From Cystobacter ferrugineus (lineage in GTDB: Bacteria > Myxococcota > Myxococcia > Myxococcales > Myxococcaceae), in the NCBI RefSeq assembly GCF_001887355.1, contig NZ_MPIN01000013.1, forward strand, positions 68,409-132,408: a stretch of 64,000 bases of DNA. The letters are read 5' to 3'. The position numbers were made by a program, and so were the translations under genes. The notes beneath the pieces were generated by a model, which was not told where the DNA came from, searched no databases, and was given only the letters and a program-made list of their open reading frames with translations. Below are positions 3,742-55,985 of this stretch, in pieces (position 1 is the stretch's first letter; each line of letters opens with the position of its first letter).

Positions 3742-3850
3742 AGGGGAGGGTCTTCTCGCGTTTTCGGAATCGCGTCACGGCCGTCCTTGGGAGGGCCGCC
3801 TGTGGCGCTCTCTTTGGGTGCGGAGTGGGACCCAACGGCACGCGCGCCCC

Positions 3851-4498
3851 TCACGGCAGTGGACGCCACCACAGGCCCTTCAAACCCGCATGCTCACAGG
3901 CCCGCTTCGCCTCTTCCGAGAAGCAATAAAAGACCAACCCGGGGACGAAAAATACCGGAGGAAATCCTCCCTCGGGTTTTCGGAACTCGAAGTGCTGGGC
4001 ATCCTCGACTCCCAGGTACGTCTCCCCACTCTCGCGGAACGACGTCCCGCTCACCAGGGTCCGATCATGATCGAGGCAGTCCAGCCGCTCCGCGAGTTGC
4101 AAGATGACGAAGTCATCGTTGCGCAGCGAAGGATCCTGCACCTGGTACGAGGTGCGCCGCCGCGGGTAACCCGTATAGACGAGTTTCTTGACCTTGCTCG
4201 AGTAGATGACCGTCGGAATGGCGCGGTGACGAAATGATCCCACGGACTCCAGTACCCGCATCATCCTCTTGGACACGAGCAGGAGGTTCAGGGGGGAGGT
4301 GAAGACATGATCGAGCCACGCCAGGTTCTTCAGATCTCCCAGGAACTCCATGACGGGAGGGGCTCCGCACAATTGATGATAATCAATGTCCGGATCGAAG
4401 AACATCGCTCGCTCGAACCCATCGAACTCGATGATCGTGGCATCGAACACGTCTTCCTTTTCGATGTGGGATGTGTCGGCGTTCAATGCGTAGATCAT
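3851..4498 (-). CDS. Imm11-like immunity protein for AHH toxin
   Basis: A 215-aa soluble protein without signal peptide or membrane segment. Its C-terminal half has the pattern I associate with the Imm11/DUF1629 immunity family common in myxobacteria: a short beta region (VILQLAERLDCLDHD), then GLVFYCFSEEAKRACEHAGL. The start codon overlaps the toxin stop in an ATGA junction (4495-4498), so the two are translationally coupled, the normal layout of a toxin/immunity pair. Role inferred from position: it binds and blocks the upstream nuclease in the cytoplasm. The family assignment is from recalled patterns; the immunity role is better supported than the family name. Confidence 0.62.
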   Translation of the reverse strand: MIYALNADTSHIEKEDVFDATIIEFDGFERAMFFDPDIDYHQLCGAPPVMEFLGDLKNLAWLDHVFTSPLNLLLVSKRMMRVLESVGSFRHRAIPTVIYSSKVKKLVYTGYPRRRTSYQVQDPSLRNDDFVILQLAERLDCLDHDRTLVSGTSFRESGETYLGVEDAQHFEFRKPEGGFPPVFFVPGLVFYCFSEEAKRACEHAGLKGLWWRPLP

Positions 4499-5454
4499 GC
4501 GACGAGTTCGACTCCTTCGGTTCTGAATTTCAACATGGCCAGCTTGTACACGGGTTTTCCCTTGACCTCGACGTGAATGCCATCCTCGATGAGTTCTTTG
4601 ACGACCTTGTCCGGCAGGCCGCCGTTCTTGATCTGATTGCGGAGTTTGTCCTCGACCTTTTTGATTGCCCGTTCGATCAATTCGAGTTTGACGTCGCGCT
4701 GCAAGATCTTTCCGCCTTGCGTGAGACCGTTTAGCTCCTTGGTGAGCAGGTCATCCACATGGTTGCTGTAGTTCTTGTGGCTGCCCAGGTGGACGTAAAT
4801 CCCATCGTCCACATGCTCGACGGCTGAGGGCATGTCGAGCATGTTCGACCCGCGGTCGATCGTGTAGTTGCTCAGACGCTCATAGGCCTCGCGTATCAAG
4901 GGGTTCTTCTGGGCCACTCCGTCTGGAATCAGGTGATGCAGTTGGGACTTGCCCTGGCTGATTCGGGCTGCAGCTTCGGCGCACGCCGCCTCTCCATGCT
5001 CTTTCCTGACCAGCTCCAGGAAGTTCTTCCTGTAGCGGCTATACACGCTGATGCGGGTGCCTTCGCCCGTCTTGAGGGCGATCAGCCCCTTTTCCGTCAT
5101 CGTGAGCTGCGCATACTCGTTCCCCTTCGCCTTGCCCGGGAGCCTGCGCACATAGCCCAGCTGACCCTCGCTGTCCTTGACCAGCTGGTAGCCCGCCTGC
5201 TTCAGCTTTCCCTCGAACCGGGTGAACTCAGACTGGCTGACATGCGTGTCGTGGACGAGGCGGCGCGCTCGCGTGGGTGGTAACCCTGCGAGGGCCAGCG
5301 TAGTGCCGCGTCGTGTGCTTCCAAATGCTAACGGCGGCGAGCGTAGGGACGCTGGAGCGGGTGACTTGCGCGAGCGCGTGGCCCAGTTCCCCGGGGTGCG
5401 TACTGTCACCATGGCCCAGGTGCTCGCCGTGCACCTGGATCGGTGCTGACTCAC
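4495..5454 (-). CDS. AHH-family nuclease toxin, orphan C-terminal tail
   Basis: The C-terminal ~250 residues carry an AHH/HNH-endonuclease VII-type core: SQLHHLIPDG (His 173-174 of this frame), then NYTIDRGSNML, a second histidine cluster VHLGSHKNYSNHV (H222, H226) and a helical end. Such domains are normally the tips of large secreted polymorphic toxins and cut nucleic acids. No delivery domain precedes it here. Recognisable toxin sequence begins near R65 (about 5262), and the first ~60 codons run antisense through a broken Lrp gene tail, so the apparent N-terminus from ATG 5454 is probably not native. No convincing start codon or ribosome site was found between. I read it as a displaced toxin tail kept with its immunity gene. 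Confidence 0.6.
   Translation of the reverse strand: MSQHRSRCTASTWAMVTVRTPGNWATRSRKSPAPASLRSPPLAFGSTRRGTTLALAGLPPTRARRLVHDTHVSQSEFTRFEGKLKQAGYQLVKDSEGQLGYVRRLPGKAKGNEYAQLTMTEKGLIALKTGEGTRISVYSRYRKNFLELVRKEHGEAACAEAAARISQGKSQLHHLIPDGVAQKNPLIREAYERLSNYTIDRGSNMLDMPSAVEHVDDGIYVHLGSHKNYSNHVDDLLTKELNGLTQGGKILQRDVKLELIERAIKKVEDKLRNQIKNGGLPDKVVKELIEDGIHVEVKGKPVYKLAMLKFRTEGVELVA
5367..5449 (+). pseudogene. Fragment: 3' end of an Lrp/AsnC regulator gene
   Basis: These 83 bp align without gaps to the last 83 bp of the intact Lrp gene (20607-20689), with 7 mismatches, and keep the reading frame and stop (ending AVHLDRC in place of AVHLDRR). Homology stops abruptly at the left. It is a 3' fragment of that gene or of a close paralog, lying antisense to the 5' end of the AHH toxin frame. 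Confidence 0.8.
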
Positions 5455-5606
5455 CTGTCGCTGTCGGAGATGTCAAAGAACCCGTTGCGGTACCTCACGC
5501 TCCACGAGTCGTCCCTACGAGTCGTCTGCCACCTGGGGGCGGGTGTCGCGGTGCGCGTGGCGGCGTGACCTGTAGCGCTTGGGGGCCAGTTCGACACCTT
5601 CCCGCG

Positions 5607-5972
5607 CTACTTCCCGCGGTCCCGTCGGGCAACGCGGTGTTTCTGCCCCCATCTGGCAAGTTCGAGAAGGAGGGGTTGAAGCTGTTGTCCCGCCTGGCTG
5701 ATGCGGTACTTCGCAACACGGGCTCCAGGGCGGAGCGGCAGCTTTTCGACCAGCCCATCCACCTCCAGTTGTTTGAGCTGGGAGGCGAGCATCCGTTCGG
5801 AAATGCCCTCCGTTCTTGCCTTCAGCTCACTGAACCTCTTGGGGCCGGAGAAGAGATCCCAGAGGAGGTGAGGCTTCCAGCGATGACCGATGAGGCGAAT
5901 CGCATAGGCGAGGGGGCAGCTCTCGTCCAAGGCTCTCTCGTTCTTGAAGTTCGTCGAGCTTGTCTTCCTCAT
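5607..5972 (-). CDS. HxlR-family transcriptional regulator
   Basis: A 121-aa winged-helix regulator when started at ATG 5972 (MRKTSSTN). It has the family hallmarks: a Cys near residue 19 (ESCPLAYAI), IGHRWKPHLLWDLFSGPKRFSELK, the recognition region ISERMLASQLKQLEVDGLV, and a basic wing. A longer in-frame start (6080) would run through the promoter region of the divergent gene and is not supported. It is divergent from the SnoaL-like gene, which it probably regulates. Its 3' 54 codons are also found, almost unchanged, in the mosaic at 8198-8361. HxlR proteins often sense reactive electrophiles; no ligand can be inferred here. Confidence 0.85.
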   Translation of the reverse strand: MRKTSSTNFKNERALDESCPLAYAIRLIGHRWKPHLLWDLFSGPKRFSELKARTEGISERMLASQLKQLEVDGLVEKLPLRPGARVAKYRISQAGQQLQPLLLELARWGQKHRVARRDRGK

Positions 5973-6082
5973 GGAGGTTTCCACCGGGGGCACTGACGAA
6001 ATTGTAAGCGGGCGCTCGCCGGATGAGCGGGATACGATTCTTCCATGAGCGCATGAGCCTCGGAAGAGGCCGGGAGTCAAAA

Positions 6083-6487
6083 ATGGAAGCTCGAGAAATC
6101 GAAGACATCAAGAAGGCGGTCGCGGGAGTCGAGAGTGCCTTCAATCGCCACGATGCCGAGGCGCTCGTGCGTTGTTACACCCAGCAGGTCGTCTGGGTGA
6201 ATGTCATGGGCATGCGGCTCAAGGGGAAGGATGAGGTCCTCCGGTTCTCGAGGAAAGCCTTCGCGAGCGCGCTCCAGGATTCGTATGCGCGTTACGTGGT
6301 GGAGGACATCTCCTTTCTCAAGACCGATGTCGCCGTGGTGAACATCCGCCAGTTCCCGGCCACGAAGGAGGGGCTGGTCATCGAGGGGGGGCAGGGGAGT
6401 GTGGCGATCTACGTGATGACGAAGCACGACGGCGATTGGCTGGTTGCGGCTGGACAAAACTCTTTTCTTCCAAAGTCGTCCTCATAA
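6083..6487 (+). CDS. SnoaL-like / DUF4440 protein (SgcJ/EcaC family)
   Basis: A 134-aa single-domain protein with the cone-shaped NTF2/SnoaL pattern: a helix with SAFNRHDAEALVRCYT, then VVWVN, a GKDEV loop, and a C-terminal strand HDGDWLVAAGQNSF. Start ATG 6083 has GGGAG 8 nt upstream; a farther ATG (6023) lacks one. The family includes polyketide cyclases, small hydrolases and proteins of unknown role, so no reaction is assigned. It is divergent from the HxlR regulator, and PhyH follows 37 bp downstream with its own ribosome site. Parts of its coding sequence and 3' end occur in the mosaic at 8360-8469. Confidence 0.82.
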   Translation: MEAREIEDIKKAVAGVESAFNRHDAEALVRCYTQQVVWVNVMGMRLKGKDEVLRFSRKAFASALQDSYARYVVEDISFLKTDVAVVNIRQFPATKEGLVIEGGQGSVAIYVMTKHDGDWLVAAGQNSFLPKSSS

Positions 6488-6524
6488 TAGGGGAGTGGGG
6501 CACGGTTCATCGGGAGGCACTGTC

Positions 6525-7226
6525 ATGCACGGGGAAGTGGCCGCACGCATCGAGCGCGAGGGATTCGCCCTGCTCCCGGAGGCCGTACCGGACGCCGGCG
6601 TCGAGGCGCTGCTCGCGAGGCTCTCCACCCTCGCCCCCGGGACGGAGCCCCGGCGGCGCGGAGGGACCCGTCAGCTCTTCGAGGCCGTGCCCGAGGCCCG
6701 GGAGTACGCCCGCTCGGGCGCGATGCGCGCGGCGGCCGAGGCCGTGCTCGGGCCCGGGTGCTTCGCCGTGCGCGCCCTCCTGTTCGACAAGACTCCCGAG
6801 GCCAACTGGAAGGTCATCTGGCACCAGGACCTCACCATCGCCGTGCGCGAGCGCCGCTCGGTCGAGGGCTTCGGCCCCTGGTCCGAGAAGGCCGGCATCC
6901 CCCACGTGCAGCCGCCCACCGGGCTCCTGGAGCGGATGGTGGCGGTGCGCCTGCACCTGGATGACTGCGGCGCGGAGAACGGCCCGGTGCGGGTGCTGCC
7001 CGGCTCCCACCGCGCGGGGCGGCTCGGCCCGGACGCCATCGCCGCCTGGCGCGAGCGGACCGCGCCCGTCGACTGCCTCGTCCCTCGTGGCGGGCTGCTG
7101 GTCATGCGGCCCTTGATTCTGCACGCCTCCTCTCCAGCCACCGCTCCGGCGCATCGACGCGTGCTCCATCTGGAATACGCGGCGGAGTCCCTGCCGGACG
7201 GGTTGGAGTGGCACGAGCGCTGGTAG
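6525..7226 (+). CDS. Phytanoyl-CoA dioxygenase (PhyH) family protein
   Basis: A 233-aa Fe(II)/2-oxoglutarate oxygenase. The metal site is readable: HxD in WHQDLTI (about H100, D102), a distal His in LILHASSP (about H200) and a following Arg (HRRVL) that would hold 2-oxoglutarate; LPGSHR is also typical. ATG 6525 is preceded by GGGAGGCA. PhyH proteins hydroxylate very varied small molecules, so the substrate is open. It probably shares a transcript with the SnoaL-like gene upstream and ends directly against a convergent ABM gene (stop codons adjacent, no terminator space). A 23-bp internal stretch (6758-6780) recurs at 8169-8191. Confidence 0.87.
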   Translation: MHGEVAARIEREGFALLPEAVPDAGVEALLARLSTLAPGTEPRRRGGTRQLFEAVPEAREYARSGAMRAAAEAVLGPGCFAVRALLFDKTPEANWKVIWHQDLTIAVRERRSVEGFGPWSEKAGIPHVQPPTGLLERMVAVRLHLDDCGAENGPVRVLPGSHRAGRLGPDAIAAWRERTAPVDCLVPRGGLLVMRPLILHASSPATAPAHRRVLHLEYAAESLPDGLEWHERW

Positions 7227-7559
7227 TCACCGTTCCGTCGAGAATCCGTACTCCCGCTCCACCAGGCTGATGCGGGTCCGGTACGCGCGGTACCACCGCT
7301 CACGGCCAAGCCGCTGGGCCGTGCGGTGCTCAGCCACGGCCTTCCACGCGCGCACCGACTCCATGTCCCGCCAGTACGAGACGGTGATGCCCAGCCCATC
7401 CGTGCCACGGGCGCTCTCCATGCCCAGGAAGCCTGGCTGCCCTGCGGCCATGGAGACCATCTCCTCGGAAGTCACCGCGTAGCCCTCGTCGACCGGCGTA
7501 CGCACGGAGGTGAAGATGACCGCCACGTAGGGCGGCTCAGGTGTGTTGGCAATGCTCAT
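7227..7559 (-). CDS. Antibiotic biosynthesis monooxygenase (ABM) domain protein
   Basis: A 110-aa ferredoxin-like ABM/Dabb-type protein: YVAVIFTSVRT, GFLGMESARG, then ITVSYWRDMESVRAWKA with the conserved Trp and a following H(R)xAQ helix. These dimeric proteins include heme-degrading and quinone-forming monooxygenases as well as many of unknown function. I used ATG 7559, where family homology starts; an upstream in-frame ATG would add a low-complexity extension. It is convergent with PhyH. Function beyond the fold is not assignable. Confidence 0.8.
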   Translation of the reverse strand: MSIANTPEPPYVAVIFTSVRTPVDEGYAVTSEEMVSMAAGQPGFLGMESARGTDGLGITVSYWRDMESVRAWKAVAEHRTAQRLGRERWYRAYRTRISLVEREYGFSTER

Positions 7560-7739
7560 GGCCCTGGACACTGGCACATGGCATCGCCAGCCCCAAGCTT
7601 GCTTCGGAGCCCTCGGGGCGGGCACGAGGCTGGATTCCGGCGGAAATCGTCGGGAGGACCGATGATTCCGGGCGGGTCGCGCCGTCTATGGGTGCGAGGC
7701 TCCCAGAAGGAGCCTTTTTCTCAAGGAGCAGGAGCCGCC

Positions 7740-8162
7740 ATGACGATCAAATCCGCCACCCCGTACTTCATCCTCAACGGCAGGACCGAGCAGGCCATCG
7801 CCCTCTACCAGCGAGCCCTGGGCGCGAAAGTCGAAGCGCTGCAGCGGTTTGGAGACGGCAACCCGAACTGTCCCACGGCGCTGCAGAGCCGGGTCATGCA
7901 CGCGGCACTGCGCGTGGGCGACGCGCTCTTGATGATGAGCGACGGTCCCAACGATTCGGCGCCGCCCCAGAGTGGGAGCGTGAACGTCGCCCTCCAGTTC
8001 GACGATCCCGATCAGGCCCGGCGCTGCTTCGACGCACTGGCGGCGAACGGCAAGGTCGTCCAGCCGCTCATCGACGCCCCCTGGGGTGAGCTGTTCGGCG
8101 CGCTGGGCGACGAGTTCGGCATCAACTGGATGTTCAACAGCGCCCAGGTCAAGAAGCCCTGA
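7740..8162 (+). CDS. VOC-family (PhnB/glyoxalase-like) protein
   Basis: A 140-aa vicinal-oxygen-chelate protein of the PhnB/YjdN type: PYFILNGRTEQAIALYQRALGAK at the start, SRVMHAALRVGDALLMMSD in the middle, and the usual ending WGELFGALGDEFGINWMFN. ATG 7740 has AAGGAGCAGGAG upstream. Family members act on glyoxals, antibiotics or unknown substrates; many are cytoplasmic dimers of unknown role. The 3' end including the stop codon and the next few bases is repeated at 25851-25913 with three substitutions. Confidence 0.86.
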   Translation: MTIKSATPYFILNGRTEQAIALYQRALGAKVEALQRFGDGNPNCPTALQSRVMHAALRVGDALLMMSDGPNDSAPPQSGSVNVALQFDDPDQARRCFDALAANGKVVQPLIDAPWGELFGALGDEFGINWMFNSAQVKKP

Positions 8163-8168
8163 CGGAGA

Positions 8169-8191
8169 GTGCTTCGCCGTGCGCGCCCTCC
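8169..8191 (+). repeat. 23-bp copy of an internal PhyH segment
   Basis: Exact match to 6758-6780 inside the PhyH gene, directly after the VOC stop codon region. The match ends where the hxlR-derived piece is about to begin (8198). Confidence 0.7.
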
Positions 8192-8197
8192 GTTCGG

Positions 8198-8469
8198 CTA
8201 CTTCCCGCGGTCCCGTCGGGCAACGCGGTGCTTCTGCCCCCATCTGGCAAGTTCGAGAAGGAGGGATTGAAGCTGTTGTCCCGCCTGGCTGATGCGGTAC
8301 TTCGCAACACGGGCTCCAGGGCGGAGCGGCAGCTTTTCGACCAGCCCATCCACCTCCAGTTTCTCAAGACCGATGTCGCCGTGGTGAACATCCGAGCACG
8401 ACGGCGATTGGCTGGTTGCGGCTGGACAGAACTCTTTTCTTCCAAAGTCGTCATTATAGGGGAGTGGGG
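8198..8469 (+). pseudogene. Internally deleted copy of the hxlR-SnoaL locus
   Basis: Three collinear segments of the 5.6-6.5 kb locus are joined: 8198-8361 equals 5607-5770 with 2 mismatches in 164 bp (starting exactly at the hxlR stop codon), 8360-8394 equals 6314-6348, and 8395-8469 equals 6423-6500 with a few changes and a 3-base deletion. About 540 and 74 bp are missing between them. The first junction shares two T residues, suggesting a microhomology join. It cannot encode either protein. Confidence 0.9.
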
Positions 8470-8560
8470 GACACGCACCGCCTCAGCGCAACTCCAACGG
8501 ATAGCAGCGCTGGCGAGCAGCTCATCCAGCGCAGGGGGCGAGATGGGTCTACCGACTCGC

Positions 8561-8635
8561 CTTCGCCTCCGTGCGGCCCCAGTCCGGGGACGAAGTCCAG
8601 CTCACGGCCGTGGGGCTGCCCGCCCCGGGCAGGTA
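8561..8635 (+). pseudogene. Deleted copy of the TolB-like gene from 24.1-25.05 kb
   Basis: 8561-8587 matches 24411-24437 exactly and 8591-8635 matches 25005-25049 with one or two changes, so about 570 bp of the source gene are missing between the halves. The second half is the 3' end of the source gene up to its stop codon (TAG here, TGA there). The source lies about 16 kb away. Confidence 0.85.
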
Positions 8636-8773
8636 GCGCGTGGGCCAAGGTCCGCCTGAAGGTGGTGTGCGCGTCACTGCACGCCGCAGTGGTGGTCCTC
8701 GACATGAAACACTCGACTCCAAAACCAATGGTGTGCGATTCCACCGCCAGCCTTCACCGCAAAGGAGTCCGAC

Positions 8774-10978
8774 GTGTTTCGACATGCATCACGCTGGGTC
8801 ACGACGCTGGTAGTGGGTTTCACCTGGGTCCAGGCAGGCTGTGCTCCCGCGGAGCCCACGGCTCCGGAGACGCCGCGCACCGAAGAGGCCGCGCGGCCGC
8901 TGCTGCCGGGTGAGCGCTCCCTCTTCGACGCCTCCTCGGTGCCGGCCGTGGAGGCCGCGGACGACGGCGCCGCGGTGGAACTGGGCGTGCGCTTCCGCAG
9001 CGACGCGCCCGGGCGCGTCATGGGCGTGCGCTTCTACAAGGGCACGGGCAACACGGGCACGCACACCGGCAGCCTGTGGTCGGCTTCGGGGGCTCTGCTG
9101 GCCACCGCCACCTTCCAGGACGAGACGGCCTCGGGCTGGCAGGAGGTGCGCTTCGCGACGCCCGTGGCCATCGCGGCGGACACGAACTACGTCGTGTCGT
9201 ACCACGCGCCCGCGGGGCACTACGCGGCGACGAACAATGGTTTCGCCTCCGCGCTGGATGCGCCGCCCCTGCACGCGCCCGCGAGCGGGACGGGGGGCGG
9301 CAACGGCCTCTACCACTACGGCACGAGCGGCTTTCCCACGGACAGCTACCAGGCCAGCAACTACTGGGTGGACGTGGCCTTCCAGCCCAACGACACCACG
9401 CCTCCGCGCGCGCCCACCAACGTGGTGGCGACGCCCAGCTCGTCCACCGCCATCGACCTGACCTGGTACGCCTCCGTGGACGGCTCGGGCGAGATGCAGG
9501 GTAACGCGCGCGCGCATCTGGTGTACCGGGGCAGCCAGCTCGTCGCGGAGCTGCCCGGCACCACCACGAGATACCGCGACACCGGCCTGACGCCCTCCAC
9601 CACCTACCAGTACACCGTGCGCGGTCGTGACGCCGCCGGCAACCTGGGCCCCGCGTCCGCCACCGTCACCGCCACCACCCTCGCCAGCAGCGTCTGCAAT
9701 CCCTGCAGCTTGTGGAACGTGGTGACGGGCGACCCCCAGTACGAGAATGCCGACTCCACCCCCACCGAGGTGGGACTGAAGTTCCACTCGGACGTGGCGG
9801 GCACGGTGACGAAGGTGCGCTACTACAAGGGCAGCACGGACACCGGGCCGCACGTGGGCCACCTGTGGAGCGCCACCGGCGCGCTGCTGGGCACCACGGT
9901 GGAGGCTCCTGGAGAGGGCAGCTTCGGCTGGCGCGAGCTGACGTTCCCGACGCCGGTGAGCCTCGCGGCGAACACGACCTATGTCGTGTCGTACTTCGCG
10001 ACCATGGGCCGCTATGCCATCACGCCCTACTACTTCAGCAGCGCGGGCGTGGACGTGCCGCCCCTGCATGCACCGTCCACCGTCGCGGCGGGCGGCAACG
10101 GGGTGCGCCACCTCAATGGCAGCGGCTTCCCCTCGGAAGCGTGGTTGAACACCAACTTCTGGGTGGACGTCGTCTTCGTGCCGGCCACGGGGGACGCATC
10201 CCCGGTCGACGTGTCCGTGCAGCATTCCTTCCCCGCCGGGACGGGCGTCCGGGGCGAAGGGCTCGACTATGACATCACGTTGACGAACCACGGCACGAGG
10301 GCGGCCACCAACCTCACGCTCGACGTTCCCGTCCCCGCCGGGCTCGCGCCCTTCGCCTTCACCCCGAAGGCGTCGGTGGGCACGTGCGGCTACCGCACCA
10401 ATGACAACATGCACTGCGACATCACGAGCCTGCCCGCCGGGCAGAGCGCCGTCGTTCGCATGACGCTGGTGCCCTCGCTCTCCGGGACGTTCCAGTTCCA
10501 GGCGACCGTCACGGCGTCCGAGACGGACGACGTTCCGGGCAACAACACCAGCACCCTGACGATCCCCGTGGGTCCCGCGTCGAACCTGGTCACCTTCGAT
10601 ACCTTCGACGGTGCGGACGAGCCCATCACCGGCATCCACGGTCCCTTCTACTTCGTGTTCAACAAGTGGTACCTCGCGTCGCCCTGGGGCGGGTTCACCA
10701 CGAAGAGCATCTCATTCAACGGCGGGGGGGTGAACAAGGGAGAACTCAGCATCTACGGGGAGCGGACGGTCGTCGGCCTCGACGCCTTCACCTGGGACAC
10801 GGGCGCGACGCTCACCCTGAGTTGCTTCAACCAGCCCACGCGCACCTTCACCCTGACGCCGGGGGAGGTGACCCACGTCGTGACGAACTGGCAGGGCACC
10901 TGCTCGTCCGTCACCCTGGCGACATCGAACGGCTGGGACACGAACTTCGACAACATCGAGCTATCGCCGCTGCCCTGA
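8774..10978 (+). CDS. Secreted lipoprotein with two DUF4082 domains, Fn3 and DUF11-like domain
   Basis: A 734-aa exported protein. GTG 8774 is chosen because AAAGGAG stands just upstream. The N-terminus is a signal peptide ending in lipobox VQAGC (Cys23). Domains in order: DUF4082 (about 65-205; GVRFYKGTGNTGTHTGSLW and NYWVDVAFQP), fibronectin III (about 211-303; PSTTYQYTVRGRDAAGN), second DUF4082 (about 320-470; VRYYKGSTDTGPHVGHLW), a DUF11-like Ig domain (about 482-590; LTNHG..ATNLTLDVPVPAG) and a beta-rich C-terminal region. The two DUF4082 copies are tandem duplicates within the protein. DUF4082 is usually found in surface or polysaccharide-associated proteins; a role in adhesion or carbohydrate binding is inference. 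It stands alone, convergent with the next gene. Confidence 0.85.
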   Translation: MFRHASRWVTTLVVGFTWVQAGCAPAEPTAPETPRTEEAARPLLPGERSLFDASSVPAVEAADDGAAVELGVRFRSDAPGRVMGVRFYKGTGNTGTHTGSLWSASGALLATATFQDETASGWQEVRFATPVAIAADTNYVVSYHAPAGHYAATNNGFASALDAPPLHAPASGTGGGNGLYHYGTSGFPTDSYQASNYWVDVAFQPNDTTPPRAPTNVVATPSSSTAIDLTWYASVDGSGEMQGNARAHLVYRGSQLVAELPGTTTRYRDTGLTPSTTYQYTVRGRDAAGNLGPASATVTATTLASSVCNPCSLWNVVTGDPQYENADSTPTEVGLKFHSDVAGTVTKVRYYKGSTDTGPHVGHLWSATGALLGTTVEAPGEGSFGWRELTFPTPVSLAANTTYVVSYFATMGRYAITPYYFSSAGVDVPPLHAPSTVAAGGNGVRHLNGSGFPSEAWLNTNFWVDVVFVPATGDASPVDVSVQHSFPAGTGVRGEGLDYDITLTNHGTRAATNLTLDVPVPAGLAPFAFTPKASVGTCGYRTNDNMHCDITSLPAGQSAVVRMTLVPSLSGTFQFQATVTASETDDVPGNNTSTLTIPVGPASNLVTFDTFDGADEPITGIHGPFYFVFNKWYLASPWGGFTTKSISFNGGGVNKGELSIYGERTVVGLDAFTWDTGATLTLSCFNQPTRTFTLTPGEVTHVVTNWQGTCSSVTLATSNGWDTNFDNIELSPLP

Positions 10979-11091
10979 GCCGTTGACGGACGGTGAGGCC
11001 AGTCCCGTCCCCCGCGCCTGCCTCCACACCGGGGGCAGGGCCAAGGGCACGCTCGTCACCCTGACTTCGCCCAGAAGGTGCGAGCCAGCGC

Positions 11092-11490
11092 TCATCGAGG
11101 ACGTGCCAGCGCACGGTGGATCGCCGAGGTGAGCTCGGTGGCGCGGATGGCATCCAGCGCGAGCTCCCAGCGGCCCTCGGCACAAAGGCCGCTCAGGCCG
11201 GCCTCCTCATGGGCCTGCCGGGCAGCGGCCGCCAAGGCTTCGCGCACCGCCTCGGCGACCGCGTGGCCGACCTCGTCACAGCGTCTGCATTCGAGCTCGA
11301 TGCCCAGACGGCTGCGCCGCCCTTCTTCCGTGAGGACCCAGGGGCGCTCCATCCACGGTGGCTGATGGCGCACGTGTTGCCGGTGGCCGCATTCGAGTTC
11401 GGCGACCCAGTGGTTCTCACCATCGAGGTGGAATCCCGTCATCTTCTGCTTCATCGGACGTGCATCCTCATTTCTACGAGCAGACTCCAT
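11092..11490 (-). CDS. DUF3565 domain protein
   Basis: A small protein (132 aa from ATG 11490) whose N-terminal part carries the DUF3565 pattern: TGFHLDGENHWVAELECGH, then QHVRHQPPW and later a CxxC (ECRRCDEV). The histidines and cysteines suggest a metal-binding module. ATG 11490 has GGAGGTGG very close upstream; ATG 11454 would also fit and starts nearer the domain. The C-terminal helix (AVREALAAAARQAHEEAGL) is not part of the domain. Function unknown. Confidence 0.72.
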   Translation of the reverse strand: MESARRNEDARPMKQKMTGFHLDGENHWVAELECGHRQHVRHQPPWMERPWVLTEEGRRSRLGIELECRRCDEVGHAVAEAVREALAAAARQAHEEAGLSGLCAEGRWELALDAIRATELTSAIHRALARPR

Positions 11491-11761
11491 TCCACCTCCA
11501 GAGATGCACATGGCGGAGCGGGTGGACAGCCCCTCGTGGATCTTCCCGCCCTGGAACCACCTCCCCACTGCTTGGACAGGTTGGCGCGCGGAGGCGAAGG
11601 GAGAGGACGTCCGCGGCGGGAGACGCCCGGACGAGGGCGGAAACGCTCCCGGGCGCTCCTTCCCCTGGAGAAGGGGGCGGAGCTCGCTCGGCCCGACACT
11701 TGCTCGGTGCGCGCGGCGGGGGCGATTGACGCGCGCGGCGGCCCACGACAGGCTTTCGGGC

Positions 11762-12631
11762 ATGGCACAGCGCGCACAGGAGCGTGGAGAGGCCTTTCCC
11801 CGGGCGCCCACGCGGGAAGAGTGGGAGCGGATGAGTGTGGAGGAGCGGGCGCGGGTGGTGGAGTCACTTCCCGGGGAGGTGACGTGGGACGAGATGGCCA
11901 TGCCGGAGGGAGACAGGCACTCCCGGGCGAAGATACAGACGTTGGATGTGCTCCAGGGCTTCTTCTCGCGGCAGAGACGGCAGGTATACCTGGGAACGGA
12001 GCTGCCGGTGTACTACCCGGGGGAGAGGCGCTTCGCGCCGGACCTGCTGGCGGTGCGGGACGTGGAGACGCACGAGCGGGACAAGTGGGTGGTGAGCCAG
12101 GAGGGCAAGGGGCTGGAGTGGGTGATGGAGGTGCACGTGGGCGGCGACCGGAAGAAGGACGCCGAGTACAACGTGGAGCGCTACGCGCGGCTCGGCATTC
12201 CCGAGTACTTCATCTACGACCGGGCGCGGCAGCGGCTGTGGGCGTACCGGCTGCCCGCGCCCGAGGCGAGGCAGTACGAGCCCATTGCGCCGGAGGAGGG
12301 CCGCTACCGCTCGGAGGTGCTGGGGCTGGAGCTGGAGGTGTCGGAGGGGAAGCTGCAGCTGTGGGCGGGAAACGCGCTGCTGCTGGAGTCCCACGAGCTG
12401 CTGGGGCAGATGAAGGAGAAGCTGGCGCAGGTGCGGCAACGCGCGGACGAGGAAGCACGGCTGCGCGAGGAGGCGGAGCGCCGCCTGTCAGAGGAGGCAC
12501 GGCGGCGCGAGGAGGCGGAGCGGCTGCGCGAGGAGGAGGCGCGGCGGCGCGAGGAGGCGGAGCACCGCCTGTCGGAGCTACGGGCCGAGCTGGAGCGACT
12601 CCGCGGACGGGAGACGCCCCTCCCCGAGTGA
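11762..12631 (+). CDS. Uma2-family (PD-(D/E)XK-like) protein with coiled-coil tail
   Basis: A 289-aa protein. Residues ~20-200 form a Uma2-type restriction-endonuclease fold (DUF820): MPEGDRHSRA, VYYPGERRFAPDLLAV with the catalytic-type Asp, LEWVMEVHVGGDRKKD with the ExK-like position changed to EVHV, and NVERYARLGIPEYFIYD. The last ~75 residues are a charged coiled coil of repeated RREEAERL-like units. Uma2 proteins are abundant in myxobacteria and cyanobacteria, often in many copies, and their true activity is not established. The changed lysine position makes nuclease activity doubtful. ATG 11762 is the first plausible start. Confidence 0.8.
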   Translation: MAQRAQERGEAFPRAPTREEWERMSVEERARVVESLPGEVTWDEMAMPEGDRHSRAKIQTLDVLQGFFSRQRRQVYLGTELPVYYPGERRFAPDLLAVRDVETHERDKWVVSQEGKGLEWVMEVHVGGDRKKDAEYNVERYARLGIPEYFIYDRARQRLWAYRLPAPEARQYEPIAPEEGRYRSEVLGLELEVSEGKLQLWAGNALLLESHELLGQMKEKLAQVRQRADEEARLREEAERRLSEEARRREEAERLREEEARRREEAEHRLSELRAELERLRGRETPLPE

Positions 12632-12687
12632 GCGCCGACGCGGACCCGCCGGGCTCCCGGGATGAAGCGGGGGAGGCTCGGAACGCC

Positions 12688-13941
12688 TCAAGTCCTCGGA
12701 GCAAGACGAGGCGGGAAGAAGCGCTCGCGCAGGCGCAAGAAGGGCATCTCGATCCACCTGGTGGCGATAGCCCCCACCGCGATGGCGTAGCCGACATAAA
12801 TGAGCGTCTGCAGGACGAACCGCAGGCCCTGGTGCGCGACGCCTTCCGCCAGGGCGCGGTTCAACCCGGTGAAGAACGCCAGGTTCAACGAGGCCATGAA
12901 GAAGTGCCAGAGGTAGATGTTGTAGGACCAGGTACCAATCCTGGCCAGGCACGTCGCGGGGAACGTCCGCTCCAGCCGGGAGAAGACGCCGCCCACCAGC
13001 AGGAAGAGCAGAATCGCGTAGGCCACCGACAGTCCCAGGAACCCGAAGGTGAACATCGCCGCCTGGCCGCGAGAGAGGACCAGCGCGGGGCTCAGCAACA
13101 ACAGGCTGAGGCAGAGCGACGCTTTGGGCCAGGCCAACAGCTTGTCCACCGTGGACCGGCGGTAGAGCCAGAGATACTGGCAATAGACGCCGACCATCAG
13201 GGAGTCGAGCCGGAAATGGGTCTGCATGAAATCATCCGGCCGCAGTCCCGTGGCCACCCGTGCGAGCCTCGCGGCCAGGCACCCTGTCAGAAACACCCAG
13301 GTGACACGCCCCATCCACCTCCCCCAATCGTCGGACCGACGCCGGGTCCACACCGTCAAGCCCAGGAGCAGGACCGGCAGGATCAGGTAGAAGTGTTCCT
13401 CCACCGCCAAGGACCAGGTGGGCCCGTTCGGGTTCTTGTCCAGATAGTTCTGGAAGAAGAGAAGGTGCGCCAGCAGGGAGGTGAGCTTCGTGTCCCAGGT
13501 GCTGCCCTGGATGTAGCCGGTGGCACCCGTCACGCCCAGGACCAGCAAGAGCACGAGGTACGAGGGCCAGATCTTGAAGCCACGCCGCAGCCAGAAGGAG
13601 ACACAATCGAGGGTGTTGTGCTTGCGCAGCTCGGAAAACAGCAGCCCGCTGATCAAGAAGCCGCTGAGGACGAAGAACAGGTCCACCCCGGTCCACCCGA
13701 ACTGCTTCACCTTCCAGTAGACGAACCCCCACGGGCCACTCGGCTCCGGCAACCCCGGTACCGTGACGGGCTCGAGGTGATTGAGCAACACCATCAGCAC
13801 GGCCACGCCACGCAGGACATCAATCGACTTGATGCGGCGCGGGGCGGAGATGGCCTGGGAGCTGTCCTCCGGTGGAGGGGAGGACGCGGGCGCCAGGTGA
13901 GCTTCCGGTTCCGAGCGCCGTAGACGTTGCGGCTCATTCAT
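12688..13941 (-). CDS. Acyltransferase 3 family membrane protein
   Basis: A 417-aa integral membrane protein with about ten hydrophobic segments. Family landmarks: RIKSIDVLRGVAVLMVLLNH near the start with the conserved Arg/His pair, GWTGVDLFFVLSGFLISGLLF, and WSLAVEEHFYLILP. These enzymes transfer acyl groups to surface polysaccharides, LPS or small molecules from the cytoplasmic side of the membrane. ATG 13941 follows a non-hydrophobic leader; 13959 is an alternative. It stands alone with no polysaccharide cluster around it, so the acceptor cannot be inferred. Confidence 0.88.
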   Translation of the reverse strand: MNEPQRLRRSEPEAHLAPASSPPPEDSSQAISAPRRIKSIDVLRGVAVLMVLLNHLEPVTVPGLPEPSGPWGFVYWKVKQFGWTGVDLFFVLSGFLISGLLFSELRKHNTLDCVSFWLRRGFKIWPSYLVLLLVLGVTGATGYIQGSTWDTKLTSLLAHLLFFQNYLDKNPNGPTWSLAVEEHFYLILPVLLLGLTVWTRRRSDDWGRWMGRVTWVFLTGCLAARLARVATGLRPDDFMQTHFRLDSLMVGVYCQYLWLYRRSTVDKLLAWPKASLCLSLLLLSPALVLSRGQAAMFTFGFLGLSVAYAILLFLLVGGVFSRLERTFPATCLARIGTWSYNIYLWHFFMASLNLAFFTGLNRALAEGVAHQGLRFVLQTLIYVGYAIAVGAIATRWIEMPFLRLRERFFPPRLAPRT

Positions 13942-14094
13942 GGCCGTGAAGGGTAGCATTGGCCTGGCCTGAGGTGTGTCCCAAGTGCGAAGGCCCTCCC
14001 CCTCGTTCAGCAAGCTGGCGAGGAAAGAGCTGGCAGGTGTCGTTGACGTCCTCCATCAGGGACGCTCGGACTCCGGCTCCTCCCTCGTCGCGGC

Positions 14095-14751
14095 TCAGGC
14101 GGTGGGCTCGCCTCTTGTTGCCTCGGCTCTGCCCCCTTCAGGGGGGACCACGTCGCGCCGGTCGAGGTAGCGCTCGAGCAACGTCACCAGCTCGGCCTTG
14201 AAGCGCGGGGAATCGAGCAGCTCCGGTCGCTCCGATGCCGCCTCGTCGATGACGGCCTGCACCGCGGTGCGCGCGACGAAGCCGGCGAGCTCGAGGTCGG
14301 GTACGTGCCGCACCAGCGATGGATCCCACGCGGGTGCCGAGGGTGACGCGGCCGCGGCGAGGCCGAGTGCGCTGCTGCGCGGGAGCTCCTGCTCGAAGAT
14401 GCGATGGAGTTCCCCGTTGGTCTTCCGCTGGCGGATGAGGGTTCCCACGCTCGCGGAGAGCGCCTCGTGCAACGTCTTGGGCGGCGGTCCCTCGGCATGG
14501 CAACCGCGCAACTGCTCGAGGTGGCGGCGCCGTAGCTCGGCCAAGATGGCCGCCTTGTTCGGAAAGTACTGGTACAGCGAGGCGATGTTCACGCCGGCCC
14601 GCTCGGCGATGGCGTTGGTGGTCAGCCGGTCCCACCCCGAACGGGTCAGAATGTAAGTCGTCGCTTGCAATATCGCCTCGACCGTCGCACGCGAGCGCTC
14701 CTGCCGGGGCCGCTTGCGCGGCAGCAGCGCGCTTCGTCGTCGTTTCGCCAT
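14095..14751 (-). CDS. TetR-family regulator of the adjacent nitroreductase
   Basis: A 218-aa TetR protein. The N-terminal DNA-binding domain reads RSRATVEAILQATTYILTR, then LTTNAIAERAGVNIASLYQYFPNKAAILAE (helix-turn-helix and the typical YxYFxxK end). The C-terminal ligand domain is variable. It is divergent from a nitroreductase-family gene 57 bp away, and a 16-bp palindrome lies between them, so it most likely represses that gene and itself and is relieved by a small hydrophobic ligand (family knowledge). Confidence 0.87.
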   Translation of the reverse strand: MAKRRRSALLPRKRPRQERSRATVEAILQATTYILTRSGWDRLTTNAIAERAGVNIASLYQYFPNKAAILAELRRRHLEQLRGCHAEGPPPKTLHEALSASVGTLIRQRKTNGELHRIFEQELPRSSALGLAAAASPSAPAWDPSLVRHVPDLELAGFVARTAVQAVIDEAASERPELLDSPRFKAELVTLLERYLDRRDVVPPEGGRAEATRGEPTA

Positions 14752-14781
14752 GGTGCCTCGGGGGGAATGCAAGTTGCCGTA

Positions 14782-14797
14782 AAGTAACCAATTACTT
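14782..14797. promoter_or_regulatory. Palindromic operator between tetR and nitroreductase genes
   Basis: AAGTAA-CCAA-TTACTT is a perfect 6+4+6 inverted repeat in an otherwise GC-rich region, 11 bp before the nitroreductase ATG and 31 bp from the tetR start. Its size and location suit a TetR dimer controlling both genes. Confidence 0.6.
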
Positions 14798-14808
14798 ACT
14801 TCTGGTGC

Positions 14809-15528
14809 ATGACCGATGACGATGTCTGGCAGGCCTTCAAGGCCGTGAACGAGCGGCGGCGCGCGGTGCGTGACTTCGATGGGCGACCGATTCCCCTCGC
14901 GACGCTGGAGGAGGTGGTCGCCGAGGCGCTCAAGGCGCCTTCCAGCGGCAACCTCCAGCCGTATCGGCTCCACGTGGTGCACGAGCCGGAGCTCAAACGC
15001 GCGGTGGCCGAGTCATGCAACGGGCAGCGCGCGGCGATGACGGCGAGCGCGTTGGTGGTGGTGGTGAGCTCGCGAGCCATCGCCCTGAGCACCCTGGGAC
15101 AGCTCGAGGTCGCGATGGGGCCCGACTCGTCACTTTCCGAGCGCTCGGTGGCGTACCATGCGCGCACATACCTCATGTTGCGCCGCTTCTTCCGCTTCGC
15201 ACCGGCACACCTTTTCGGCGCGCTGCGCATCGCGGTGTCCTTCCTCATGCCGGTGCTATCGTTGCTACCTTTCGGGCCCTCTGGCGTGCGTCACTGGCTC
15301 GCGCGCAACAGTCTCTTCGCCGCGCAGACGTTGATGCTCGCCGCGGCCGCGCGCGGCCTCGACACCTGCCCCATGGAGGGCTTCGACGCGATGAAGGTGA
15401 GCCGGTTGCTCGGGCTTCCGTGCGGCAGCGTGGTGCCGGTGGTCATCGCCGTCGGCCACCGAAGCGCCGATGCGCGCGTGGAACCGCGGCTTCGCCGAAG
15501 CCTCGCCGAGGCGGTGGTGGTGCACTGA
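14809..15528 (+). CDS. Nitroreductase-family flavoprotein
   Basis: A 239-aa nitroreductase-like protein: RRRAVRDFDGRPIP at the start (FMN phosphate binding), APSSGNLQPYRLHVV, and near the end GLDTCPMEGFDAMKVSRLLGLP, the classical helix-loop signature. A central insertion (RTYLMLRRFFRFAPAHLFGA and following ~25 hydrophobic residues) is longer than in small nitroreductases and could contact membrane or lipid. It should be an FMN-dependent NAD(P)H oxidoreductase acting on quinones or nitro compounds. ATG 14809 has no clear ribosome site and a leaderless transcript is possible. Controlled by the adjacent TetR by inference. Confidence 0.83.
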   Translation: MTDDDVWQAFKAVNERRRAVRDFDGRPIPLATLEEVVAEALKAPSSGNLQPYRLHVVHEPELKRAVAESCNGQRAAMTASALVVVVSSRAIALSTLGQLEVAMGPDSSLSERSVAYHARTYLMLRRFFRFAPAHLFGALRIAVSFLMPVLSLLPFGPSGVRHWLARNSLFAAQTLMLAAAARGLDTCPMEGFDAMKVSRLLGLPCGSVVPVVIAVGHRSADARVEPRLRRSLAEAVVVH

Positions 15529-15741
15529 TGCTTCAGAGCGCCGGGAGGTGCCGTTCCCGACTGCGAGTTGTCTGACACCCATCTCGGACACCCATCTCGC
15601 GGGGTGGCATGGCGGACATGTGCCCCAGAAGGCGATGGAGAACTGCCTTCCTGGAGTGACAGTTCCCAGGAGGGACGGTGTTCCAGTGACGGGACTCGCG
15701 AATCAGCGCGATCGGCTGGCGTCATCTCCAGGAGAAAGAAC

Positions 15742-16572
15742 ATGTGGAAGAGCCTGTGTGTGGGTGTGGCGGCACTGACGTTCATGTTCGCTTGTGACAG
15801 GTCCGGAGAGCTGGGCAATGGCCACAAGGTCACTCAGCCGCGCGAGCTCACCGGCTTCACCCGGGTGGAAAATCGCACTCCCCTGGATGTGGAGGTGCGC
15901 GAGGCCTCCGCCGAGTCCGTCACCCTCACGCTCGATGAGAACCTGCTCCCGTTCGTCATCACCCGCGTCTCCGGGGAGACGCTCTTCATCGAGAACACCA
16001 CGAACCTGTTGTACTCGGGTGAAGGCCGCGTGGTGGCGACGCTGCCGCGCTTCCTCGGCGCTGGGAATGCTGGCTCCGGCGACTTCCTCGTCGAGGGCGT
16101 GACCCAGTCGAACGCACTCACCTTCGAGCTCTCGGGCTCTGGCGGCATGGCGTACTGCGGGCCGGCCTCCCGCCTCACCGTGAACCTCCCGGGCTCTGGC
16201 AACATGACGCTGTGCACTCCGCGGGAGCAGGTGCTGGAGGAGGTGCGTCTGGGGCTCTCTGGCTCCGGCTCGCTCACCTACGACGGCTCCACGGCGAGCA
16301 TGGTGGCCCTCCTCGAGGGTTCGGGCGGCATGAGCCTCACTGGCTCGGCGCCGCGCCTGGTGGCCCGGGTGACCAGCAGCGGGGGCCTCGAGGCCCGGGG
16401 GCTCATCAGCTCGGAGGCGGAGCTGGACCTGACCGGTTCTGGCAATATGAGCGCCACCGTCGATACCACCGCGACGGTGCACATCGATGGCTCTGGCAGT
16501 GTGGATCTCTGGGGAAACGCCACGTTGCGCGACATGCGCATCACCGGGAGCGGGAGCCTGCGGCGTCACTGA
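15742..16572 (+). CDS. DUF2807-family lipoprotein
   Basis: A 276-aa protein starting at ATG 15742 behind AGGAGAAAG. The N-terminus is a lipoprotein signal peptide ending FMFAC (Cys18). The rest is a repetitive beta structure with many glycine/serine turns (FELSGSGGMAYC, VNLPGSGNMTLC, GLSGSGSLTYDG, LTGSGNMSATVD), the adhesin-like right-handed beta repeats of DUF2807. Family members are envelope proteins of unknown role; some have been linked to stress or metal response. The 3' end overlaps the end of the convergent TetR gene by 7 bp. Confidence 0.84.
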   Translation: MWKSLCVGVAALTFMFACDRSGELGNGHKVTQPRELTGFTRVENRTPLDVEVREASAESVTLTLDENLLPFVITRVSGETLFIENTTNLLYSGEGRVVATLPRFLGAGNAGSGDFLVEGVTQSNALTFELSGSGGMAYCGPASRLTVNLPGSGNMTLCTPREQVLEEVRLGLSGSGSLTYDGSTASMVALLEGSGGMSLTGSAPRLVARVTSSGGLEARGLISSEAELDLTGSGNMSATVDTTATVHIDGSGSVDLWGNATLRDMRITGSGSLRRH

Positions 16573-17186
16573 GCCTCGGGCCTCCCTTTCGCCCTGGGCG
16601 GATGCGTGGAGAGCCCATGGATGATGAGCGTGGCCAGGGTCGCGGCGGCCTTGGCCTCCTCGACGCGCCCTCGAATCATCTCCCGCGAAATCGCCTCCGC
16701 CGCGCCGATGATTCCGACGCAGCGCAGGCGGAGCTCCTCCTTCGACAGGCTCGTGTAGGGCGCGAACGCCTCGCAATAGAGGGCCACGTAGCTGTCGATC
16801 AGTTCCCGCTGGAAGGCCTCCATCTCCTCGTCGCCCTTCAGCGCGGCCGAGATGGCATGCCACTCCGGACCCACCGATGTGTAGCAGTTCATGTAGGCGT
16901 GGCTCACCACGCGGGCGACGTCTTCCAGCCGGCGTCGTGTGCGCTCGAGCGCATCCTGCAGCACCTTGACCTGCCGGGCGTCTATCTCCGCGTAGAGCGC
17001 GATGAGCAGCCCGGAACGCGTCTTGAAATGCTCGTAGGCCACCGGCTTGCTGACGCCGGCACGCTCGGCGAGGTAGCCGAGCGTCAGCGCATCCGTCCCT
17101 TCCTCGCGCACGATGGTCTGCGCGATGTCGAGCAACTGGTCGCGCCTCTGGGCCTTCGGCAGCTTCTTGCTGGATGTCTCGCTCAT
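16566..17186 (-). CDS. TetR-family regulator
   Basis: A 206-aa TetR protein: QRRDQLLDIAQTIVREEGTD, then LTLGYLAERAGVSKPVAYEHFKTRSGLL as the helix-turn-helix with the usual end. It is divergent from two tandem paralogous oxidoreductase genes, and a 29-bp AT-richer tandem palindrome lies in the 210-bp gap (17297-17325). It probably represses those genes. Its 3' end overlaps the DUF2807 gene tail. Confidence 0.87.
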   Translation of the reverse strand: MSETSSKKLPKAQRRDQLLDIAQTIVREEGTDALTLGYLAERAGVSKPVAYEHFKTRSGLLIALYAEIDARQVKVLQDALERTRRRLEDVARVVSHAYMNCYTSVGPEWHAISAALKGDEEMEAFQRELIDSYVALYCEAFAPYTSLSKEELRLRCVGIIGAAEAISREMIRGRVEEAKAAATLATLIIHGLSTHPPRAKGRPEAQ

Positions 17187-17296
17187 GGCAACGCGGCTCG
17201 CACCTGAACCGGTGTCGAGTCACTGTAACGCGCCGCCAGGCGCGCGGCACGAGCCGCGTCGCCGCCCGTCACTTTCTCCGAAGAAATCGTGGCGAA

Positions 17297-17325
17297 CCTA
17301 CTTTTGGTAACCTACTAAAGGTAGG
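17297..17325. promoter_or_regulatory. Tandem imperfect palindromes, probable TetR operator
   Basis: CCTAC-TTTTG-GTAAC is followed, sharing bases, by CCTAC-TAAAG-GTAGG. The second unit is a perfect 5+5+5 inverted repeat and the first is degenerate; both start with CCTACT and are spaced 14 bp. They lie about 70 bp before the first oxidoreductase start, where a promoter would be. Two dimers binding in tandem would fit this spacing. Confidence 0.6.
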
Positions 17326-17396
17326 AACACGGACCGGATGGGCGTGGCCACTTCCAACCACGCCGCCGCCCCGCCATGCAGAGGAGCCCTCCCGCC

Positions 17397-18407: not shown

Positions 18408-18445
18408 GCGGCCCATTTCCAGAACAACCCAGGAGAGCATCCACC

Positions 18446-19498: not shown

Positions 19499-19510
19499 CA
19501 GCTCGCGCCC

Positions 19511-19524
19511 GCCGAGTATTCGGC
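19511..19524. terminator. Small hairpin between convergent genes
   Basis: GCCGA-GTAT-TCGGC, a perfect 5-bp stem with a 4-nt loop, lies between the stops of the oxidoreductase operon and the cysteine hydrolase gene. Short, no T-run; weak candidate. Confidence 0.3.
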
Positions 19525-19549
19525 TCACCCCGGGTGCAAAGGCCTGGTC

Positions 19550-20122
19550 TCAGGCCGCCCTCGCGGCGAGTGCCCGGAGCACGTCCGCGGTGTCCACCAC
19601 GCGGCCGAACTCGGTCGCCAGGGTGGCCAGATGCACGCGGTGCATGGTGTCCGCGTCGAACAGGGTGCCATCGGGTGCCCGCTGCGCCCAGGTGTGGCAG
19701 GCATCAGCGACCACCGCCAGATCGAAGCCGAGGTTGGCCGCCATGCGCGCGGTGGTGGAGACGCACATGTCCGTGGCGATGCCGAAGAGGACGACCTGCC
19801 GCACGCCGGCCGCATGCAGGCGGGCCTCCAGGTCGGTGCCGATGAAGGCGCTGTTGACGGTCTTGGTGAGCAGCGGCTCGCCCGCGAGCGGCTCGAAGCC
19901 CGGCTTGAGCGCGTTGCCCGGCTGCCCCGGGCGCAGCAGCGAGGTGGGAGAGGAACTGTCATGGCGCACGATGACGAGCGGCCGCCCGGAGCGCCGCCAG
20001 GCAGCGAGGAGCTCGAGCGCGTGCGCCTCCATGTGGGGGTTGTTGCGTGGGCCCCAGGATGGGTCGTCGAAGCCCTGCTGCACGTCGATGGAGATGAGCG
20101 CCGCGCGGTCGTGGAGTTCCAT
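19550..20122 (-). CDS. Isochorismatase-like cysteine hydrolase
   Basis: A 190-aa cysteine hydrolase. The triad is visible: Asp in LISIDVQQGF, Lys in LLTKTVNSAF, and nucleophile Cys in GIATDMCVSTTARMA, which also carries the cis-peptide region. The family includes isochorismatase, nicotinamidase and N-carbamoyl hydrolases; the substrate is not clear, but the short form without carrier domain argues for an amide or small-molecule hydrolase. ATG 20122 is followed directly by typical family sequence. It is divergent from the Lrp gene 132 bp away, which may control it. Confidence 0.87.
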   Translation of the reverse strand: MELHDRAALISIDVQQGFDDPSWGPRNNPHMEAHALELLAAWRRSGRPLVIVRHDSSSPTSLLRPGQPGNALKPGFEPLAGEPLLTKTVNSAFIGTDLEARLHAAGVRQVVLFGIATDMCVSTTARMAANLGFDLAVVADACHTWAQRAPDGTLFDADTMHRVHLATLATEFGRVVDTADVLRALAARAA

Positions 20123-20254
20123 GTGCTTGCTCCCGTGGGTGGTGAAACGGCACCCTAGGGAGCACGGCCGCCGGTCGACAGGTGGCGGAGTGCCGCTCCA
20201 CCGGCGAAGTGCCGGTGGGCACCGGGGATGAGCCCGCGGGAGGAAACAACGGGT

Positions 20255-20689: not shown

Positions 20690-20717
20690 CCCACTTCGCG
20701 CGCCCCCCTGCGGTGCC

Positions 20718-55982: not shown

Positions 55983-55985
55983 CGC

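Follow-up and report, generated by a model that had tools for sequence, protein, structure and literature searches.

The interval examined here (8163-8773) lies in a window of 64,000 bases, the whole stretch of DNA that was analysed, which corresponds to bases 68409-132408 of contig C13 in a draft genome of 12.05 Mb (the query genome). Open reading frames and Pfam matches place a VOC/glyoxalase gene, whose stop lies at 8162, on the left of the interval and a DUF4082 gene (8774-10978) on its right. Positions refer to the window unless a congener or another contig is named. Two congeners, G002 and G003, mostly 94–97% identical to the query genome, were used for comparison; according to passages of PMC5658505, G002 is a finished genome of 12,349,744 bases, obtained as a PacBio assembly closed with Illumina reads.

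The mosaic between the VOC and DUF4082 genes

Between 8169 and 8634 the interval consists almost entirely of pieces of genes that lie 2–16 kb away (Table 1); over 370 aligned bases there are five mismatches, along with a single gap of 3 bases. The resulting divergence of approximately 1.4% compares with 3–6% for most homologous blocks between the query genome and its congeners. All pieces are in direct orientation and mostly follow the order of their sources, with internal deletions. No source was found for bases 8192-8196, 8470-8476, 8588-8589, and approximately 8635-8690. One clear overlap, of two bases (8360-8361), is present at the junctions, the others showing no overlap or small gaps.

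Table 1. Position, strand, and basis of assignment of the features in the window.
Feature	Position	Strand	Basis
Shuffled zone (zone 1): blocks homologous to G002 and G003, order changed, orientation kept	3794..56015	.	comparison with G002 and G003
Scar: 3' end of AsnC/Lrp-type gene 20228-20689	5367..5454	+	91% over 88 bases; Pfam AsnC
Dispersed palindromic element, ~66 bases (GGTGTCA...TGACACC), group II intron home site in G003	5463..5540	.	alignment of copies and empty site; copies in three genomes
Source genes HxlR (-), SnoaL-like (+), PhyH-like (+), ABM (-), VOC/glyoxalase (+)	5607..8162	.	open reading frames, Pfam
Scar: internal piece of PhyH-like gene	8169..8191	+	exact 23-base match to 6758-6780; 97% over 28-29 bases in query-genome search
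Scar: 3' end of HxlR-type regulator gene	8197..8361	-	source 5606-5770, 2 mismatches in 165; intact gene 5607-6080 (-), Pfam HxlR
Scar: internal piece of SnoaL-like gene	8360..8394	+	exact 35-base match to 6314-6348; 2-base overlap with HxlR piece
Scar: 3' end of SnoaL-like gene	8395..8469	+	source 6423-6500, 2 mismatches and 3-base gap; intact gene 6023-6487, Pfam SnoaL_2/DUF4440
Group II intron fragment, stopping before the part matched by Rfam RF00029	8477..8560	+	88-89% identity (84-86 bases) with repeats at six loci of G003
Scar: internal piece of PD40 gene	8561..8587	+	exact 27-base match to 24411-24437
Scar: 3' end of PD40 gene	8590..8634	+	source 25004-25048, 1 mismatch in 45; intact gene 24085-25050, Pfam PD40
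Upstream region of DUF4082 gene 8774-10978, conserved with the gene	8691..8773	+	alignment start: G002 at 8691, G003 at 8708, 10 of 15 Corallococcus or Myxococcaceae loci at 8705
Scar: 3' end of VOC/glyoxalase gene (intact copy ends 8162)	25851..25921	+	95% to 8107-8169; 94% to G003 VOC end

The mosaic is a confirmed observation. When the interval was masked and searched against the window, the six matches gave E-values from 2e-85 to 1e-6; when its 611 bases were shuffled 300 times with dinucleotides preserved, three of the shuffles gave any match at E ≤ 1e-3. Scoring of the best 40 of 98 candidates from the query genome returned nine matches: the interval itself, seven in the region, and, on a different contig, one of 27 bases. 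Because whole-genome searches scored the best candidates only (40 of 98; elsewhere 40 of 858 and 40 of 886), missing matches are weak evidence of absence.

An earlier note, made from the sequence alone, had described a recent intergenic mosaic of partly deleted gene copies, and this description is borne out by the matches, all six of which exist. The correspondence of 8198-8361 to 5607-5770 with two mismatches holds and extends by one base (8197 = 5606), and the two bases common to the junction at 8360-8361 are real. The word "equals" was slightly too strong for 8395-8469 and 6423-6500, which match without being identical, and the true match given as 8591-8635 to 25005-25049 was framed one base off, a shift that gives two mismatches rather than one. 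The claim that the pieces stand in source order with internal deletions applies to the HxlR–SnoaL and PD40 pieces and fails for the PhyH piece, which precedes the HxlR piece. The intron fragment and the copies of the VOC and AsnC 3' ends are additional to that note. Relatives in which an ordinary gene fills the gap, its parts having been copied out instead, were not encountered in the two congeners: left of DUF4082, G002 carries other debris and G003 carries another block.

Fifteen Corallococcus or Myxococcaceae loci were compared for ancestral neighbours of the DUF4082 gene; close sharing was confined to this gene, with additional weak matches (approximately 57–59%) in three of the 15 loci.

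Repeats resembling 8477-8560 lie in six G003 loci; in the three of these that were searched with Rfam, RF00029 follows directly, and in one RF02005 precedes. Rfam gave no call at 8477-8560 in the window, and the intron piece is only one of seven, so that group II intron mobility was rejected as the cause of the mosaic. Copies of the palindromic element and of introns were seen in the G003 loci L106, L107, and L125, and several G003 contigs end inside intron copies. The 66-base palindromic element was likewise discarded as a recombination site, as most junctions lack it, though copies at 354450 and 355986 bracket one moved G003 block.

Gene order and scars in three genomes

The mosaic lies within a shuffled zone (zone 1) whose flanks are collinear with G002 and G003 for tens of kilobases, insertions apart. 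Inside the zone, each of the three genomes has its own order of single genes and small gene groups, which are 88–97% identical. The DUF4082, DUF3565, and DUF2807 genes (at approximately 8.7, 11.1, and 15.6 kb), for example, are arranged as 8-11-15 in the query genome, as 11-8-15 in G002, and as 11-15-8 in G003. One or both congeners lack many of the zone genes in the homologous zone. The left border of zone 1 is marked at 3851-5454 by a toxin-like gene (AHH nuclease) and the gene next to it, and the G002 zone contains a Tox-REase-5 gene.

Relocated blocks were counted from matches of at least 200 bases and at least 86% identity, with overlapping matches removed; the choice of backbone decides which blocks are called "relocated". 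There were 13 for C13 against G003, six for C13 against G002, five for G002 against G003, and one for part of contig C9 against G002. None of these 25 blocks is inverted; the four comparisons share events, and the blocks are therefore not independent cases. Those of C13 represent 17 different segments, some of them one rearrangement viewed from both sides, and one relocated match of 234 bases (172875) is probably a paralogous toxin N-terminus. Since the blocks carry genes of both strands, selection for gene strand does not explain the constant orientation. A second shuffled zone (zone 2), at approximately 248–286 kb of contig C13 (180–217 kb from the window start, outside the window), likewise shows no inverted block against G003 and contains one inverted short-repeat pair (199515-199693 and 206869-206953); a smaller shuffled zone lies on contig C9 at approximately 102–124 kb.

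Two longer-range moves into zone 1 behave differently from these local ones. The spermidine-synthase-like gene (25957-26781) lies far elsewhere in G002 and G003, in opposite orientation, and the P450 gene (29724-30983) is distant in both congeners and opposite in orientation, also relative to its neighbour; moves as such are thus not bound to one orientation here. The P450 gene and a glycosyltransferase-like gene (named by eye from its open reading frame) form a pair (28504-30983) that has a distant location in G002 and G003.

Partial copies of zone genes were found in zone 1 of all three genomes and are direct in every listed pair, rows of repeat-protein arrays being set aside. Five of the six source genes in the window (AsnC, HxlR, SnoaL, PD40, and VOC, with PhyH as the exception) have a scar that reaches the 3' end of the gene. 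The VOC gene on the left flank is one instance: its last part (8107-8169) is repeated at 25851-25913 with three mismatches in 63 bases. G002 carries the 3' end of a GST gene at 5713115-5713290 (intact gene at 5720628-5721338), and its zone debris includes pieces of a toxin-like gene; a 43-base repeat there (5709110 and 5714271), considered as a remnant of the following block, was ruled out as such when gene calls identified it as a piece of that toxin-like gene. G003 carries 3' ends of PhyH (368019-368077) and of VOC (354528-354565).

Three scars sit where a sister genome holds the intact gene. The VOC 3' scar of G002, together with the spacer to the lyase gene, aligns over 116 bases (87%) with the intact VOC end and the same spacer in G003; VOC was thus lost in G002, with its 3' end retained. 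The PhyH 3' scar of G003, which starts two bases past the end of the DUF3616 stop codon, sits immediately to the left of VOC, corresponding to PhyH-ABM-VOC in the query genome, and a SnoaL 3' end lies just left of PhyH in G003, at the same place as the intact SnoaL gene of the query genome. These three cases link scars to genes formerly present at those sites.

In approximately 1.02 Mb of the three genomes, 35 local pairs were counted (at least 24 bases, no copy-number filter, repeat-protein array rows left out); 22 belong to zone 1, six to zone 2 (two of them inverted), and seven lie elsewhere. In G002, the segments 6813418-6815172 and 6815370-6817124 form a near-identical local duplication of 1,755 bases (99.7%). 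On contig C9, an 8.8 kb segment that is absent from the homologous place in G002 lies between two identical direct copies of 72 bases (195264-195335 and 204127-204198), which look like a gene 3' end including its stop codon; six proteins scanned there gave no Pfam family. In G002, two copies of a 266-base stretch (5765889-5766154 and 5780287-5780552, 98.5%) enclose 14 kb that include genes for ABC transporters and sigma-54 activators and that the query genome and G003 lack at that place; by eye, the stretch was read as a small gene resembling Lrp/AsnC.

The orientation of partial copies was determined as a function of distance in seven stretches of the three genomes (2,481,230 bases), matches of at least 28 bases and at least 88% identity being accepted and stretches with more than three matching partners being left out; the count takes in whole local gene duplications as well as debris. 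Copies 2–20 kb apart were direct in 61 cases and inverted in two, those 20–60 kb apart were direct in four and inverted in two, and those more than 60 kb apart were direct in five and inverted in 11. The inverted local pairs comprise one at 0.3–2 kb, two at 2–20 kb (both in zone 2), and two at 20–60 kb; in addition, one inverted 55-base match was found between the window and G003. In 400 kb of G041, from another genus, eight direct and no inverted copies were counted at 2–20 kb. The direct excess alone is thus not special to the genus Cystobacter, and an excess of direct local repeats may be general.

Block ends were compared with genes called from length and GC3 under a simple rule. Of the 56 3' block ends in the shuffled zones, 26 fall within three bases of a predicted stop codon, compared with two of 33 outside; the 5' ends are scattered, many of them tens to approximately 150 bases ahead of a predicted start, with some falling within genes. 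With a control matched for large indels, the suggestion that ends at stop codons are peculiar to the shuffled zones loses force: for ends beside indels of at least 500 bases, the figures are 17 of 36 in the zones and four of 20 outside (P = 0.05). The stop-codon ends are read as the outcome of selection trimming all but functional units; a precise cutting mechanism is possible.

Probable duplication and loss, and the alternatives

The mosaic is probably the residue of tandem duplication followed by loss of redundant copies. Segments of a few to approximately 20 kb would be copied in tandem in the zone, selection would preserve a single functional copy per gene, and the redundant ones would be deleted. 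Because survival of one or the other copy would be largely a matter of chance, gene order would change and orientation would not, and incomplete deletion would leave scars of the lost copies, often 3' ends. The HxlR–SnoaL and PD40 pieces, in source order with internal deletions, are as expected from the decay of longer copies.

The VOC scar could be derived from a G003-like order of DUF4082, DUF3616, PhyH, ABM, VOC, and lyase genes by a tandem copy of all but the lyase gene. If PhyH-ABM-VOC were kept from the first copy and DUF4082 to DUF3616 from the second, VOC would come to lie left of DUF4082, and its 3' scar (25851-25921) would remain right of DUF3616 and left of the lyase gene; approximately 12.6 kb of other genes now lie between this scar and the lyase gene. 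The HxlR–SnoaL scars right of VOC would stem from a second copy of the 5.6–8.2 kb block, and the PD40 scars just left of DUF4082 from a copied segment running from PD40 through DUF3616, the intact PD40 gene being the one right of DUF3616. The PhyH piece left of the HxlR piece misfits the simplest two duplications and would call for a further event. The order of genes and scars predicted from one duplication fits the VOC scar, and the mosaic requires at least two or three events.

Debris in three genomes, shuffling without inversion, and three scars at syntenic places point to repeated duplication and loss rather than to one event. No intact multi-gene tandem duplication was seen in zone 1, the near-identical local duplications of G002 lying elsewhere; the whole-segment intermediate, and with it tandem duplication as the source of the second copies, the number and order of the events, and the route of the deletions, is thus what we infer. 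As to that route, the mosaic joins share at most two bases, and a search for a Ku gene gave no match in the query genome (as a control, the same search matched one of 14 genomes, that of Bacillus subtilis). End joining by Ku was therefore rejected, and replication slippage or another short-homology deletion would be likelier than classical end joining. Duplication alone does not explain the genes missing from the congener zones; the scheme also needs external gain or the loss of every copy.

These missing genes are the point at which the strongest rival, recombination between differently ordered haplotypes, has something to offer. A zone segment would be imported from a relative of different gene order, with homologous recombination taking place in a shared gene, the second copies would be imported ones, and their ends would be illegitimate joins. 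Orientation would be preserved by such an import too, absence of genes from sister zones would be accounted for, and the rival would suit both copies that differ by 1–9% and the 14 kb that G002 alone holds between its two 266-base copies. Import itself, however, does not create the first order differences, and the near-identical local duplications within one genome need no import; as an account of the mosaic it is considered unlikely.

Template switching or microhomology-mediated repair, the route preferred in the earlier note, would have built the mosaic from short patches in one event. For the mosaic taken alone such an event is possible: two source regions are joined within approximately 470 bases, the divergence of about 1.4% is similar throughout (the uniform five differences in 370 bases being compatible with a single event as well), the junctions overlap by two bases or less, and in a genome without a Ku match classical end joining is not an obvious route. 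Against this, the pieces are all direct and represent two sources in order with internal deletions, and debris of the same class and of other ages occurs elsewhere in the zone and in both congeners, beside changes of gene order and, in three instances, where a sister genome has the intact gene. One event of this type is accordingly regarded as quite improbable.

Movement of genes by a gene-cassette or integrative-element system (integron-like, or with islands inserting at gene 3' ends) would produce constant orientation, gene-sized units, ends at stop codons, and direct copies of gene 3' ends. Yet scans of zone proteins at E ≤ 0.001 (40 from the window and 10 each from G002 and G003) detected no recombinase or transposase family, approximately 15 of the 52 zone gene calls lying outside the scan and a recombinase encoded elsewhere being conceivable; within the same scope, the earlier statement that no transposase or integrase is nearby stands, and an integron or transposon was discarded as the cause. 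The scanned proteins include nuclease-like domains (AHH, Uma2, Tox-REase-5, and restriction-endonuclease-like) and several proteins without any family. In addition, no common motif or shared recombination site was visible by eye in 45 aligned block ends (those no more than 20 bases inside or 25 bases past the predicted stop), and the scars include internal gene pieces, so that this system is a very improbable source of the pattern.

An assembly fault, named in the earlier note as the main alternative and suggested by the draft state of the query assembly (42 contigs), is very unlikely, as substitutions and a 3-base gap distinguish the copies, the mosaic is enclosed in a contig of 321 kb, and the finished genome of G002 shows the same kind of debris.

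Tandem duplication with subsequent loss could be extended to a more general proposal, held tentatively and as yet doubtful: the shuffled zones might be a regular, inversion-free engine of gene-order change, in which expression-ready units (upstream region plus gene up to the stop codon) would be repeatedly copied and culled at fixed places and in which the intergenic DNA would be a fossil record of earlier orders.

Comparison with known systems

Integron gene-cassette arrays consist of gene-sized units in one orientation and in changed order. The units of the zone are likewise gene-sized, equally oriented, and altered in order; they differ from cassettes in that no recombinase family was found among the scanned proteins, no common site was seen at the ends, and gene bodies have left scars.

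Template switching and microhomology-mediated repair yield chimeric joins with few or no common bases. The mosaic resembles their products in such joins, and its one 2-base overlap and the similar divergence of its parts may fit them; unlike these products, its pieces are direct and largely in source order, and the debris of the zone is of several ages.

Tandem duplication and amplification in bacteria are usually studied as transient changes of copy number. Direct copies of a few kilobases and the loss of spare copies are common to both, whereas a lasting change of gene order with scars sets the present zones apart.

In bacteria, changes of gene neighbours over short evolutionary times are mostly deduced from their outcome. 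In the present zones, the spacers contain pieces of what appear to be lost copies, from which individual rearrangement steps become readable. If the pattern holds, large bacterial genomes can be reordered locally by ordinary duplication and deletion, with no need of a mobile element, and annotations would be expected to contain chimeric intergenic open reading frames as a by-product. Rearrangement distances in bacterial genomes are the subject of PMC7542183.

The closest parallel is found in mitochondria. PMC3283314, PMC5745709, and PMC4223735 explain changes of mitochondrial gene order by segment duplication and loss of redundant copies, and the title of PMC5745709 points to remnants of lost copies between genes. 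Among the literature matches listed, nearly all of which concern mitochondria, there was no report of duplication-random loss with legible scars in a bacterial chromosome. As in mitochondrial tandem duplication-random loss, the order of the present blocks changes without inversion (none of 25 inverted; the two longer-range moves do flip), and remnants lie between retained genes in three genomes, three of them at syntenic places. In contrast to the mitochondrial case, the setting is a bacterial chromosome of 12 Mb, the process is confined to zones, and gain or loss of genes is added. On balance, the comparison favours the view that duplication-random loss, known mainly from mitochondria, has here occurred in a bacterial chromosome in which its scars are still legible.
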